DNA of 64,000 nt from Firmicutes bacterium HGW-Firmicutes-16 (GTDB taxonomy: Bacteria > Bacillota > Clostridia > Oscillospirales > Oscillospiraceae). The notes below the pieces were generated by a model. It ran no database searches. It was given only the letters and a program-made list of their open reading frames with translations, and was not told where the DNA came from. The stretch's first letter is position 1. Every line of letters begins with the position of its first letter. Both the position numbers and the translations under genes were made by a program. The DNA lies in NCBI GenBank assembly GCA_002841545.1, contig PGZZ01000001.1:62001-126000 (forward strand). Reading direction: 5' to 3'. Shown here in pieces: positions 4,635 to 55,677 of the stretch.

Positions 4635-4733
4635 GGTCAGAGTAGGACTTGGCGCGTTAAGTGCAGGCGGATGGGAGTTGCCGTCCTGACGAAATGGTTT
4701 TTACCATGCGGTGCCTTGTTCGCATCCGCTGCC
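4635..4733 (+). promoter_or_regulatory. Tetrahydrofolate (THF, folT-type) riboswitch
   Basis: The region matches the folT/THF class I aptamer in order: AGAGTAGG (4639-4646), CGCGTTAAGTG (4653-4663), GGATGGGAGTTGCCG (4669-4683), GACGAA (4688-4693), then CGGTGCC and TTCGCATCCGC (to 4729). The closing stem pairs GGTCAG (4635-4640) with CTGCC (4729-4733), leaving one bulge. It starts 52 bases after folC and ends 50 bases before the folT ATG, the usual target of this class. Binding of reduced folate would be expected to lower folT expression. Confidence 0.9.
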
Positions 4734-20892: not shown

Positions 20893-21864
20893 ATGACGCA
20901 AATACTCTCTCTCCTACAGGCGGCTATGGTTTTCGGCACAGTCATACTCTTCGGCGCAATCGGCGAAATTATGACCGAAAAGTCCGGCAACCTTAACCTC
21001 GGCGTTCCGGGCATCATGTATCTCGGCGGTATTGCCGGACTTGCCGGCGCGTTCTGGTATCAGACCAACGTTGCAACGCCGAATGCGATGATAGGTCTTC
21101 TCATCGCCCTCGTTTGTGCACTTGTTGCAGCAGGTCTCGGCGGTCTCATTTATAGCTTTCTTACCATTACGCTTCGAGCAAACCAGAATGTCACGGGTCT
21201 TACTCTCACGATATTCGGCTCGGGCGTTGCCAATCTCTTCGGTGGAGCAATGAACAAGATGGCCGGCGGCGTCGGCCAGATATCCGTAGGTATAACCAGC
21301 GATGCTTTCCGCGACACACTACCGTTCCTGTCGAATGTCGGAGTTTTTTCGGGCCTCGGCTTCATGGTCTATCTTGCTATTATCCTCGCCTTTTTAGCGA
21401 GTTACTTCCTTAACAGAACACGCAAAGGTCTGAATCTTCGTGCAGTGGGCGAAAATCCCGCTACAGCAGATGCCGCCGGTATCAACGTAACGAGATATAA
21501 ATATCTTTCCACTTGCATTGGCGCTGCAATTTCGGGTCTCGGCGGTCTTTACTATGTAATGGACTACATCAAGGGCACCTGGTCAACCGACGGCGGCATC
21601 GAAAAGCTTGGCTGGCTCGCCGTGGCGCTCGTAATCTTCGCACGTTGGAAACCCATTCAGGCCATTTGGGGTTCCTACCTCTTTGGCGCTCTTTTCTGGC
21701 TCTTCCTCTATATCCCCGGACTTACACGCTCGTCTCAGGAGATATTCAAGATGCTGCCTTACGTTGTCACAATAATCGTTCTGATTGTCGTGTCACTCCG
21801 TAAGAATCGCGAGAACCAGCCGCCAGCAAATCTCGGTATGGCGTATTTCCGCGAAGAGAGATAG
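20893..21864 (+). CDS. Nucleoside ABC transporter permease 2
   Basis: 323-residue permease of the same family with nine to ten hydrophobic segments. It opens with an Ile/Leu-rich helix and has GEIMTEKSGNLNLGVPGIM, then the coupling region GLNLRAVGENPATADAAGINVTRYK. It starts a few bases after permease 1 and ends the operon. The 18-bp inverted repeat at 21874-21937 lies just behind it. Confidence 0.9.
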   Translation: MTQILSLLQAAMVFGTVILFGAIGEIMTEKSGNLNLGVPGIMYLGGIAGLAGAFWYQTNVATPNAMIGLLIALVCALVAAGLGGLIYSFLTITLRANQNVTGLTLTIFGSGVANLFGGAMNKMAGGVGQISVGITSDAFRDTLPFLSNVGVFSGLGFMVYLAIILAFLASYFLNRTRKGLNLRAVGENPATADAAGINVTRYKYLSTCIGAAISGLGGLYYVMDYIKGTWSTDGGIEKLGWLAVALVIFARWKPIQAIWGSYLFGALFWLFLYIPGLTRSSQEIFKMLPYVVTIIVLIVVSLRKNRENQPPANLGMAYFREER

Positions 21865-21870
21865 ATTTTC

Positions 21871-21899
21871 TTGCATAAAATTACCCCCTCATGTATAAT
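21871..21899 (+). promoter_or_regulatory. Promoter for the first DUF5684-type gene, inside an inverted repeat
   Basis: TTGCAT (21871-21876) and TATAAT (21894-21899) have a 17-base spacer. The spacer and part of the -35 form the left arm of the inverted repeat. Transcription would start near 21906, inside the loop. Confidence 0.65.
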
Positions 21900-21937
21900 T
21901 TCACTATAGAGATTATATTTGAGGGGGTAATTTTATG
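21874..21937 (+). promoter_or_regulatory. 18-bp perfect inverted repeat covering RBS and ATG
   Basis: The left arm 21874-21891 (CATAAAATTACCCCCTCA) and right arm 21920-21937 (TGAGGGGGTAATTTTATG) are exact complements with a 28-base loop. The right arm holds the Shine-Dalgarno (GAGGGGGT) and ends on the G of the start codon. RNA reading through from the nucleoside operon could fold this stem and hide the start. RNA from the local promoter would lack the left arm. It may also stop upstream transcripts, although no T-run follows. Confidence 0.75.
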
Positions 21938-22750
21938 AATGAGGCTATGAAATTTTTAATAGGATTTATGGTTTTTTTCTGGATAATCGGTCTTGCAGTC
22001 GGCGTTCTGGTGATAATCGCAACATGGAAGGTCTATGAAAAAGCTGGTGAACCCGGTTGGGCGTCGCTTGTTCCATTTTACCGAGACTATGTATTTTTTA
22101 AAATCTCATGGGGCAACGGTTGGTATTTTCTACTTAACGAAATTCCTAGCGTGCTTTACCTGATATTTTATATACCGTTTAGCATTGGTTTGACGAGGGG
22201 AATTCTCTCTGGTTATAACAGCTATGGCGGTGCTCCCTTCGGTAACTTTGATATTGTGTCAAATAGCATTGGATTTGGCATGCTCATATTCCTTTTTTCG
22301 ACCGCTATGCTGGTCGTCAGCATCATCACTTGTATAAAACTCGCAAAAGCCTTCGGACAGGGCGGCGGCTTTGCTTGCGGTCTTATCTTCCTTTCTCCTG
22401 TGTTTCTCTGCATAATGGCCTTCAGCAAAAACATATATTATGTAGGTATTCCCGGCAAAATGCCACCCTATGGTCAACCGGGCAATGGTAATCCCTCTGC
22501 TCCTAACGGTCAGCAGCCTAACTGGCAGAATCCCTATTACCAGCCGAACGGCTATCAACCACCACCTTACCACGGGGCCCAACCGCCTAATCAGTACGGT
22601 TCGACTCCGGGCTGGGGATGGCAGCCGCCCGAGGCTCCTCCGAGCGCAAATCAGCAGCACCCAGGCGACTTCGTCAAATTCTGCTCCGACTGCGGCTCTC
22701 CGCTGAAGAAGGACGATATTTTCTGCCCCAAATGCGGCAAGCCTCAGTAA
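21935..22750 (+). CDS. DUF5684-type membrane protein with zinc ribbon
   Basis: 271-residue membrane protein, first of three related neighbours. It has a helix near the start, the family motif EKAGEPGWASLVPFYRDYVFFKISWGNGW (positions about 30-58), further helices and LAKAFGQGGGFACGLIFL. A Pro/Gln/Tyr/Asn-rich linker (about 175-245) leads to a C-terminal zinc ribbon with two CxxC pairs (FCSDCGS, FCPKCGK). It is longer than its paralogues because of an extra segment (about 67-105). Function unknown; the ribbon presumably faces the cytoplasm. Confidence 0.85.
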   Translation: MNEAMKFLIGFMVFFWIIGLAVGVLVIIATWKVYEKAGEPGWASLVPFYRDYVFFKISWGNGWYFLLNEIPSVLYLIFYIPFSIGLTRGILSGYNSYGGAPFGNFDIVSNSIGFGMLIFLFSTAMLVVSIITCIKLAKAFGQGGGFACGLIFLSPVFLCIMAFSKNIYYVGIPGKMPPYGQPGNGNPSAPNGQQPNWQNPYYQPNGYQPPPYHGAQPPNQYGSTPGWGWQPPEAPPSANQQHPGDFVKFCSDCGSPLKKDDIFCPKCGKPQ

Positions 22751-22784
22751 AGAGGAATTATATGGGAAACTTTCTAAATATATC

Positions 22785-22813
22785 TTGTCAATGCTTGGAT
22801 TTTATTGTAAAAT
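22785..22813 (+). promoter_or_regulatory. Promoter copy 1 of the duplicated DUF5684 upstream region
   Basis: TTGTCA (22785-22790) and TAAAAT (22808-22813), 17 bases apart. The same arrangement and most of the following 45 bases recur before the third paralogue at 23388. Confidence 0.7.
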
Positions 22814-22869
22814 AATTTTAATGCAGATTATTTTCTGTATATTGAGAGAATTATATTTAGGAGGATTTT

Positions 22870-23253
22870 ATGGACATTGATTATGAAGCAATGAGTAGCG
22901 TATTCCAAATGTCGGCAGGGGCAATGGTAATAAGTTGTCTGTTAGGTGTTCTTTTCATCGTATCTCAATGGTTACTGTTCAATAAAGCAGGTGAAGCGGG
23001 CTGGGCTGCAATCGTTCCTTTCTACAATCTATATGTGCTTTTCAAGATCACTTGGGGAAGCGGTGTAAAGTTCCTGCTACTTCTCATCCCTATTGCTAAC
23101 GTTGTCATAGCTATCATCACACTCGTAAAACTTGCAAAGGCCTTTGGCAAGGGCGGCGGCTTCGCCTGCGGTCTAATTTTCCTTCCCTATATCTTCTATC
23201 CCATTATGGCCTTCAGCAAAAACATTTCGTATGTAGGCGTACCGGGCAAATAA
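22870..23253 (+). CDS. DUF5684-type membrane protein without zinc ribbon
   Basis: 127-residue short paralogue of the genes on both sides. It has an N-terminal helix, NKAGEAGWAAIVPFYNLYVLFKITWGSGV (about 38-66), a second helix pair and LAKAFGKGGGFACGLIFLPYIFYPIMAFSKNI. It stops right after GVPGK, exactly where the paralogues continue into the Gln/Pro linker and zinc ribbon. It is thus the bare membrane domain. AGGAGG precedes the ATG. Confidence 0.85.
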   Translation: MDIDYEAMSSVFQMSAGAMVISCLLGVLFIVSQWLLFNKAGEAGWAAIVPFYNLYVLFKITWGSGVKFLLLLIPIANVVIAIITLVKLAKAFGKGGGFACGLIFLPYIFYPIMAFSKNISYVGVPGK

Positions 23254-23313
23254 GTCCAGAACAATATCTCCGACATACGGATTTATTTTGTTTTCTACAT
23301 ACACACTTTAGAA

Positions 23314-23342
23314 GAAAAAGCGGAACATTCGTCCGCTTTTTC
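23314..23342 (+). terminator. Terminator after the short DUF5684-type gene
   Basis: GAAAAAGCGGA and TCCGCTTTTTC form an 11-bp stem around a seven-base loop. Confidence 0.9.
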
Positions 23343-23387
23343 TTAGTATTACAAACAGTCATCATTTAGTGAAATTCAAAATATATT

Positions 23388-23416
23388 TTGTTAATACTTG
23401 TATTTTATTGTAAAAT
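23388..23416 (+). promoter_or_regulatory. Promoter copy 2 of the duplicated DUF5684 upstream region
   Basis: TTGTTA (23388-23393) and TAAAAT (23411-23416), 17 bases apart. The spacer and downstream region match the 22785 copy closely, including a small GCAGA-TCTGC hairpin in the leader. Confidence 0.7.
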
Positions 23417-23478
23417 AAACTCAATGCAGAGTATTTTCTGCGTCTTGCGAGAATTATATTATAACGAGGAGGTTTTCT

Positions 23479-24153
23479 ATGTATTACAACTACGGTTATG
23501 ACAACGACATGATGGACAGTTTTTTTCACATGTCGGCAGGCTCCACATTTATCAGTCTTCTTCTCGGTGCTCTTTTAATCGTTTCACTTTGGTTCATTTT
23601 CCAAAAAGCCAATGAGCCAGGCTGGGCGGCCATTGTTCCCTTCTATAACTACTATGTGCTTTTTAAAATCACATGGGGCAACGGCTGGATGTTCCTGCTT
23701 CTGCTTATCCCCATTGCCAACATTGTAATCGCAATAATTACACTAGTCAAACTCGCCAAGGCCTTCGGCAAGGGAGGCGGCTTCGCATGCGGACTCATTT
23801 TCCTGTTTTATATTTTCCTTCCGATCATGGCTTTCAGCAAGGACATCGTCTATGTCGGTATTCCCGGCAAAGAAGGCCAGTATAATCCCGGTTACAGTCA
23901 GCAGGGCTATCAGCAGCCCAACTATCAGCAGCCCGGTTACCAGAACCCCTATTCTCAGGGATATCAGGCTCCCCAGCAGCCGTATCAGGCGCCTGAAGCT
24001 CAGCAGGGAACATATCAGCAGCCAAGCGCACAGAACCCCGAATACTTCTATCAGCAGACAGTGGCACCGGCAGGCCCCAAATTCTGCGCAGGCTGCGGCG
24101 CACCTATCGAAGGCAATGTCAAATACTGCCCCAAGTGCGGAAAACCCCTGTAA
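23479..24153 (+). CDS. DUF5684-type membrane protein with Gln-rich linker and zinc ribbon
   Basis: 224-residue third paralogue. The membrane domain (about 1-130) carries QKANEPGWAAIVPFYNYYVLFKITWGNGW and LAKAFGKGGGFACGLIFL. A linker of YQQP-like repeats (about 135-195) leads to a zinc ribbon with CAGCGA and YCPKCGK pairs. The domain order equals that of the first gene, without its extra segment. CGAGGAGG precedes the ATG. Together the three genes look like a recent local expansion. Confidence 0.87.
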   Translation: MYYNYGYDNDMMDSFFHMSAGSTFISLLLGALLIVSLWFIFQKANEPGWAAIVPFYNYYVLFKITWGNGWMFLLLLIPIANIVIAIITLVKLAKAFGKGGGFACGLIFLFYIFLPIMAFSKDIVYVGIPGKEGQYNPGYSQQGYQQPNYQQPGYQNPYSQGYQAPQQPYQAPEAQQGTYQQPSAQNPEYFYQQTVAPAGPKFCAGCGAPIEGNVKYCPKCGKPL

Positions 24154-28077: not shown

Positions 28078-28098
28078 CCCATGGCAGCCAGCCATGGG
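28078..28098 (+). other. Leader hairpin before glyS
   Basis: CCCATGGC (28078-28085) and GCCATGGG (28091-28098) form an 8-bp stem, just before the AAGGAG site of glyS. There is no T-box here; the leader is too short for one. Confidence 0.4.
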
Positions 28099-28116
28099 AC
28101 AAGGAGAAACGAATTA

Positions 28117-29517
28117 ATGCTTAAAAACACAGAAAAAACCATGGACAAGCTCGTAGCGCTTTGCAAAAATCGCGGTTTTGTATACGCCGGAAGCGAAATT
28201 TACGGCGGACTTGCAAACAGCTGGGATTACGGTCCCCTCGGAGTTGAGCTGAAAAACAATATCAAGCGCGCCTGGTGGAGAAAATTCGTGCAGGAGAACC
28301 CCTACAACGTCGGTCTTGACGCTGCTATCCTGATGAATCCGCAGGTCTGGGTTGCCTCTGGTCACGTCGTCAACTTCAACGACCCGCTCATCGACTGCAA
28401 GGAGTGCAAGATGCGCCATCGCGCCGATCATCTAATTGAGCAATACAATACGGCTCACGGCATCGAGATGGTGGCGGACGGTCTGCCCAACGAGGAATTA
28501 ATCGCCTATATCCGCGAGCATCAGATTCCCTGTCCGGGCTGCGGCAAGAGCAATTTTACGGATATACGCAAATTCAACATGATGTTTAAAACACATCTGG
28601 GCGTTACGGATGACAGCAGCACAGAAATTTATCTGCGTCCCGAAACGGCTCAAGGTATGTTCGTTAATTTTAAAAACGTTCAGCGCACCACTCGCCGCAA
28701 GCTGCCCTTCGGCATCGCGCAGGCTGGCAAAAGCTTTCGCAACGAGATAACCCCGGGCAACTTTATCTTCCGCATTCGCGAGTTCGAGCAGATGGAGCTT
28801 GAGTTCTTCTGCAAGCCCGGCACAGAGCTCGATTGGTTCGATTACTGGCGCTCCTACTGCAAAAACTGGCTGCTCTCGCTGGGCATTCAGGAAGAAAATC
28901 TTCGTATGCGCGACCACGAGAAGGAAAAGCTCTCTCATTACTCCAACGCTACGACGGACATTGAATATCTCTTCCCGTTCGGCTGGGGCGAGCTTTGGGG
29001 CGTCGCTTCACGTACCGATTTCGACCTCAAGGCTCACTCAAAAGCTTCGGGCGAGGAGCTGAGCTATTTTGATCAGGAGTCAGGCGAGCACTACATCCCA
29101 TACTGCGTGGAACCCGCCGTCGGTGTTGACCGAATCCTGCTTACAGCTCTTGTTGACGCCTATGACGAGCAGATCGTTGATGCCGAAAAGGACGACGTGC
29201 GCGTCGTTCTGCATCTGCATCCGGCACTCGCGCCCATTAAGTGTGCCATCCTGCCTCTTTCTAAGAAGCTCGGCGAGCCGGCGGAGGAGCTTTTCCGCTC
29301 CCTCCAGAAGCATTTCATGGTTGAATACGACGAGTCAGGCTCAATCGGCAAGCGCTATCGCCGTCAGGACGAAATCGGCACGCCCTTCTGCGTGACCTAT
29401 GACTTCGATTCCGAAACAGACGGCTGTGTCACCGTGCGTGAGCGCGACTCAATGGAGCAGGTGCGCATAAAAATCAGCGAGCTTGCTGCTTATATCGAAA
29501 AGAAACTTGAATTTTAA
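28117..29517 (+). CDS. glyS: Glycyl-tRNA synthetase, single-chain type
   Basis: 466-residue class II aminoacyl-tRNA synthetase of the single-chain type that charges tRNA-Gly. It starts [31 protein letters not shown]. Motif 2 appears as [16 protein letters not shown] (about 204-219) with [16 protein letters not shown], and motif 3 as [10 protein letters not shown] (about 333-342). A C-terminal anticodon-binding domain follows. A four-Cys zinc site is suggested by [11 protein letters not shown] and [19 protein letters not shown] precedes the ATG at 28117. Confidence 0.96.
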
Positions 29518-55584: not shown

Positions 55585-55627
55585 GACCAGAAGGTCGGGG
55601 ATTCGAATACCTCAAGGCGTACCAAAA
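55585..55627 (+). repeat. Right copy of the 43-bp direct repeat (tRNA-Arg 3' half)
   Basis: It repeats the tRNA-Arg sequence from the anticodon stem to past CCA, but no 5' half precedes it. The single mismatch (55609) breaks the last pair of the T-stem, so it is not part of a working tRNA. Confidence 0.92.
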
Positions 55628-55677
55628 GAAGACGACCTGCTTTTATGCTTATAAAAACAGGTCGTCTTCTTTTGGTA
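55620..55677 (+). terminator. 20-bp perfect stem-loop at the right repeat
   Basis: The arm at 55620-55639 (TACCAAAAGAAGACGACCTG) pairs perfectly with 55658-55677, and the 18-base loop can pair further. It begins on the repeated CCA, so the hairpin and the attachment sequence overlap. This is probably the original terminator of the tRNA gene before insertion. Confidence 0.8.

Follow-up and report, generated by a model that had tools for sequence, protein, structure and literature searches.

A near-palindrome between two bacterial transcription units that may shield the start of a DUF5684 gene from read-through RNA

Terminators in compact genomes can be leaky, and read-through RNA can then express a neighbouring gene at the wrong time. 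In IS10/Tn10 and IS50, the terminal inverted repeat folds incoming RNA over the transposase start, and RNA made from the element's own promoter is free. A related arrangement is known for the phage T4 genes e (lysozyme), soc and 49, where a long RNA from upstream folds a helix over the Shine-Dalgarno sequence and/or the AUG and is poorly translated (PMC3014915). At gene e, the long RNA is made early, and the internal promoter, which lies in the DNA coding for the helix and yields a short translatable RNA, is used late, so that the arrangement works as a timer; this was shown experimentally, with an effect of about 100-fold for lysozyme (PMC3014915). In the leaders of T4 I-TevI, I-TevII, I-TevIII and segB and of Aeh1 mobE, likewise, transcripts that begin at upstream promoters are the only ones to fold a hairpin over the ribosome site, and the DNA that encodes this hairpin contains the gene's own promoter (PMC2988022). 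No chromosomal case of a start-sealing layout with an embedded promoter was found in the literature searched. Here we describe a near-palindrome of 64 bases in which promoter, hairpin and ribosome site are packed together; on one side of it lies an operon for nutrient uptake, on the other a separate gene for a membrane protein. Judged from sequence, the layout known from phage T4 is here conserved between species.

The locus lies in a 64,000-nucleotide stretch of contig PGZZ01000001.1 of Firmicutes bacterium HGW-Firmicutes-16, hereafter called the window; all positions are those of the window and refer to the + strand unless stated otherwise. The upstream operon encodes a nucleoside-type ABC transporter, with a Bmp-family binding protein (PF02608), an ATPase and two permeases. 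The last permease gene (BPD_transp_2, 20893..21864; an ORF with a Pfam PF02653 match, E 1.5e-33) is the putative source of read-through. After an intergenic gap of 70 bases, three tandem DUF5684 genes follow on the same strand, two of which encode C-terminal zinc ribbons; the first of these paralogues (21935..22750, assigned from the ORF and its domain matches) is a membrane-protein gene with such a ribbon. We found no terminator-like structure or other hairpin between the permease stop at 21864 and the left arm of the palindrome, and RNA reading through from the operon would thus carry both arms. The next terminator-shaped stem on the + strand (23312-23344) lies past the second DUF5684 gene.

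Around this junction (20893-24153), the DUF5684 gene directly follows the last permease of the nucleoside-type operon in all 11 genus genomes that could be read, which hints at a functional link. No papers on DUF5684 were found in the literature searched. The leaders of the other DUF5684 genes (22785-22870 and 23388-23479), together with leaders L008, L009, L010, L013 and L030, share a promoter ending in TAAACT or TAAAAT; they often have a small hairpin, and GAGAGA before the Shine-Dalgarno sequence. These shared features possibly represent a common 5' leader element of the gene family.

The stretch that runs from the -35 hexamer of the embedded promoter through the ATG, TTGCATAAAATTACCCCCTCATGTATAATTTCACTATAGAGATTATATTTGAGGGGGTAATTTTATG (21871-21937), holds both arms of the palindrome. 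The left arm, CATAAAATTACCCCCTCA (21874-21891), starts 9 bases past the permease stop. The right arm, TGAGGGGGTAATTTTATG (21920-21937), contains the Shine-Dalgarno sequence AGGGGGT (21922-21928) and the start codon, its last base being the G of the ATG of ORF 21935-22750. The arms are complementary at 18 of 18 positions and are separated by 28 bases, and the partner of the Shine-Dalgarno sequence is the left-arm segment CCCCCTCA. An initial annotation had described an 18-bp inverted repeat at 21871-21937, with a promoter spacer in its left arm and with a right arm that covers the Shine-Dalgarno sequence and ends on the DUF5684 ATG; each of these points was borne out by the pairing, the ORF and the overlap between the left arm and the spacer (21877-21893). 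In the predicted RNA fold, arm pairing runs on inward as a 10-bp helix closed by a 6-base loop (21893-21918, with 21893-21902 pairing to 21909-21918), so that the RNA forms one hairpin. The minimum free energy of a 101-nt stretch was -43.2 kcal/mol, against a mean of -15.6 in shuffled sequences (z = -9.9), and 0 of 200 shuffles folded as well. In a shuffled window, the arm sequence is expected 0.03 times, even when three mismatches are allowed.

The promoter consists of a -35 hexamer TTGCAT (21871-21876), which matches TTGACA at three of six positions, a spacer of 17 bases and a perfect -10 hexamer TATAAT (21894-21899). The left arm overlaps the spacer and also takes in the last three bases of the -35 hexamer, and the -10 hexamer falls within the loop region of the hairpin. 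The promoter was not listed by a promoter scan, because its -35 hexamer is weak by consensus; both hexamers are nevertheless identical in the three species that have the layout (G000, the genome studied here, and its relatives G006 and G010). From the promoter spacing, transcription would start at about 21906-21908, in the loop, and RNA from this promoter is thus predicted to be made without the 5' strand of the hairpin. On the minus strand (21939-21912), the palindrome mirrors a promoter-like sequence, TTCATA-16-TATAAT, that could give antisense RNA into the permease gene; its -10 hexamer is present in G010 and degraded in G006.

The initial annotation had proposed that the start is sealed in read-through RNA and free in RNA from the gene's own promoter, a proposal that is in line with the predicted energetics. 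The predicted probability that the Shine-Dalgarno sequence is unpaired was 0.0001 for the long RNA, as against 0.59 for the short one. Opening the DUF5684 start was calculated to cost 29.5 kcal/mol in the long RNA versus 5.0 kcal/mol in the short, own-promoter RNA, the latter being an ordinary value. The same calculation gave 28.1 and 4.4 kcal/mol for the long and short RNAs of G006, and 17.6 and 5.6 kcal/mol for those of G010. As a genome background we took the 64-kb window and 400 kb of contig C15 (464 kb in total). Among the 357 predicted gene starts in this sample, the DUF5684 start ranked first for opening cost (29.9 kcal/mol; median 5.9 kcal/mol, 99th percentile 17.2 kcal/mol). A long stem is not rare in itself: there are 44 perfect stems of at least 14 bp in 400 kb of the same genome, most of them terminator-shaped. 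However, of all inverted repeats with arms of at least 10 bases in the 464 kb, only the repeat at 21874-21937 covers both a Shine-Dalgarno sequence and its start codon.

Other structured elements were seen elsewhere in the window. A perfect inverted repeat of 20 bp, with 18 bases in its loop (55620-55677), is followed by AAAATCGC, which is not a U-tract; the stretch in front of the repeat, GGTCGGGGATTCGAATACCT, looks like the 3' portion of a tRNA. An Rfam search of the window for known RNA families found only one tRNA and a THF riboswitch, whose aptamer lies at 4636-4733 (75 bits).

We consider it reasonably probable, from the sequence and the modelled folding, that the palindrome acts as a compact read-through block, which would seal the start and perhaps also terminate transcription, as at T4 e and I-TevI. 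The gap of about 70 bases would have to both end one operon and start another gene. RNA arriving from the transporter operon would contain both arms; its left arm would be made first and could capture the Shine-Dalgarno sequence and the start codon as soon as they emerge. The DUF5684 start would then be folded away and the long RNA would not be translated, and the same hairpin may also terminate part of the transcription of the operon. RNA from the gene's own promoter, starting in the loop, would lack the left arm and be translated normally. The DUF5684 gene would thus be insulated from the operon, because incoming RNA would fold its start away.

The initial annotation had the anatomy right when it proposed sealing against read-through; however, it had overlooked that the same hairpin is the only candidate terminator of the upstream operon. 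The palindrome could serve chiefly to end transcription of the transporter operon, as an intrinsic terminator that shares its DNA with the next promoter to save space, in which case little read-through RNA would exist and the cover over the Shine-Dalgarno sequence would be a by-product. The hairpin indeed begins 9 bases past the permease stop, a place at which a terminator-like hairpin is found in most of the genus relatives; its A/T-rich outer and G+C-rich inner stem resembles many long stems of this genome, and no other terminator precedes the stem at 23312-23344. Of the features expected of an intrinsic terminator, the G+C-rich stem is present, but the weak U-rich tail that follows its G+C part, UAAUUUUAU (21928..21936), a possible terminator tail, is an interrupted and mediocre U-tract. 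Its T-score is 2.04 in G000 and G006 and 1.44 in G010, as compared to a median of 3.2 over 72 hairpins of the genome, and termination at this hairpin may therefore be partial. In addition, two A's directly follow the stem in G010, and the loop region is far larger than that of ordinary terminators. In an E. coli test system, moreover, terminators lost much of their activity to the trailing ribosome when they lay a few bases past a stop codon (PMC4824070), although E. coli is a different host. Should such repression occur at this locus too, a seal at the level of translation would be needed precisely at times when ribosomes are busy on the operon. On balance, we regard a mainly terminating role as rather unlikely.

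To see how the layout is distributed, we read 11 genomes of the genus, with G006, G007, G008, G009 and G010 among the relatives of G000. The permease stop, some 70 bases to the next start, TTGCAT-17-TATAAT and the hairpin over the Shine-Dalgarno sequence are common to G000, G006 and G010, in which the gap measures 70, 69 and 71 bases, respectively. The pattern was found in two of the 11 genus genomes and nowhere else in 400 family genomes drawn, a draw that was made without G010. A search of genome contigs for further relatives gave only G010 and G009 again, and a search of viral contigs gave none. G006 agrees with G000 at each of the 36 arm bases (18 of 18 in each arm), against a background of synonymous sites that are saturated with change: identity at fourfold sites is 46% in the permease gene and 37% in the DUF5684 gene. 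G010 retains 14 of 18 left-arm bases and 16 of 18 right-arm bases of G000 (four and two differences), and four outer A-U pairs of the 18 arm pairs are broken. The 8-bp core CCUCCUCA/UGAGGGGG opposite the Shine-Dalgarno sequence still pairs in G010, with one C-G pair changed to U-G, and together with the inner helix it forms 19 continuous pairs. Under random changes, the core would be retained by chance in about 5% of cases, so pairing as such is only modestly supported by its retention.

The initial annotation had also called for compensatory changes in the arms among relatives, and here its expectation failed: no two-sided change occurs in the three sequences, and pairs of the core and inner helix that changed were mostly kept through one-sided changes. 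Across these sequences only, three pairs varied and stayed paired, five are unpaired in some sequence and 20 of 28 never vary; with three sequences and so few variable pairs, a covariation test has little power. The earlier interpretation as a whole thus gains from the anatomy, the predicted energetics and conservation in two further species, but not from two-sided compensation. The absence of compensation would also fit a pairing that has no function, a quasi-palindrome made by chance or by mutation (for instance template switching) whose halves are kept for the promoter and the leader. Each of these is expected to be conserved independently, and much of both the right arm and the hexamers is explained in this way. 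One third of the arm pairs that are able to vary are broken in G010, and template switching is known to create and perfect stems of this kind (PMC8794818). However, the promoter spacer, a part that is normally free to vary, agrees at 15 of 17 positions in G000 and G006 (P about 4e-4 for a neutral identity of 46%), and what G010 has kept of the stem is precisely the stretch that faces the Shine-Dalgarno sequence.

The history of the flanking genes also speaks to this question. Trees built from four flanking genes, and likewise from the third DUF5684 gene, placed G000 with G010 and G006 with G007, each with 100% RELL support. The perfect arms common to G000 and G006 are therefore most simply ancestral, which again stands against a pairing without function; taken together, we judge such a pairing improbable. 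An ancestral perfect stem also led us to reject its formation by template-switch repair of an imperfect, G010-like ancestor. On this tree, G010 would most simply have lost outer pairs and G007 would have swapped the device for a canonical terminator and a separate promoter. Indeed, an ordinary terminator and, after it, a distinct promoter occupy this site in G007, which suggests that what counts is keeping the two units apart. Gaps of 131-221 bases are seen in the remaining genomes of the genus, most of which have a terminator-like hairpin there; the exception is G008, with 27 bases, where the DUF5684 gene probably belongs to the operon. A bolder proposal is that a single palindrome serves as operon terminator, promoter spacer and anti-start clamp, that it is under selection, and that it is evolutionarily interchangeable with a terminator plus promoter, on a chromosome and away from mobile DNA; we offer this tentatively, as a possibility about which some doubt is in order.

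One gene in the window gave a conflicting tree. glyS (glycyl-tRNA synthetase, 28081-29517) grouped G000 with G006 and G007 with G010, with about 91% identity within and 78% between the groups, and because of glyS alone a concatenated tree that included it had another topology. This strong conflict points to gene replacement through horizontal transfer, with two allele types involved.

An operator straddling the -10 hexamer would also fit the perfect symmetry of the arms and their strict conservation between G000 and G006; the arms would then be half-sites of a DNA-binding regulator that overlap the promoter, and the RNA hairpin would be incidental. The genome gave little sign of such a regulator: its 2.8 Mb hold the 12-base arm core in no other exact copy, and one-mismatch matches (3+7, the two arms included) were not in excess over a reversed control (4+5). 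Moreover, the arms of G010 changed at different positions, leaving as a common half-site only TGAGGRGG, the Shine-Dalgarno sequence itself. We therefore hold an operator to be very improbable. Other candidates were rejected. The arm is without further copies in the genome, at odds with a repeated element or mobile end, and an insertion-sequence end of the IS10/IS50 type would in addition call for a transposase, where the gene is DUF5684. An invertible promoter was discarded because only 28 bases lie between the arms and no recombinase is indicated.

If the read-through block works as predicted, a bacterial chromosome would use a phage T4 trick, blocking read-through at the level of translation inside 70 bases. 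A natural comparison would be at hand in the sister species, whose versions of this site range from the perfect stem through a stem in partial decay to an ordinary terminator. A caution also follows for transcriptome data: RNA-seq reads covering such a gene would not imply that its protein is produced.

How, then, does this locus relate to the systems described above? By its anatomy, the DUF5684 case would work like T4 e and the homing-endonuclease leaders, and both sequence features of these systems are found here. As at T4 e, the 3' strand of the predicted hairpin holds the Shine-Dalgarno sequence and the start codon, and an embedded promoter would give a short RNA; as in the leaders of I-TevI and its kin, the gene's own promoter lies inside the hairpin-coding DNA. 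Unlike T4 e, soc and 49, however, the present case, known from sequence, concerns a gene on a chromosome, next to a metabolic operon; its promoter is of the sigma-A type and its stem is longer and nearly perfect. The homing endonucleases are mobile phage genes, whereas the DUF5684 gene is a stable neighbour of the operon in the genus genomes examined (11 of 11). From IS10 and IS50 it differs in having no transposase, no target duplication and a single copy in the genome. Like intrinsic terminators with an overlapping downstream promoter, it has a G+C-rich stem just past a stop codon and then a U-rich stretch, but the U-tract is weaker than most in the genome and the stem contains the ribosome site and start codon of the next gene. 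The present case, for its part, is chromosomal, single-copy and without ties to a mobile element.
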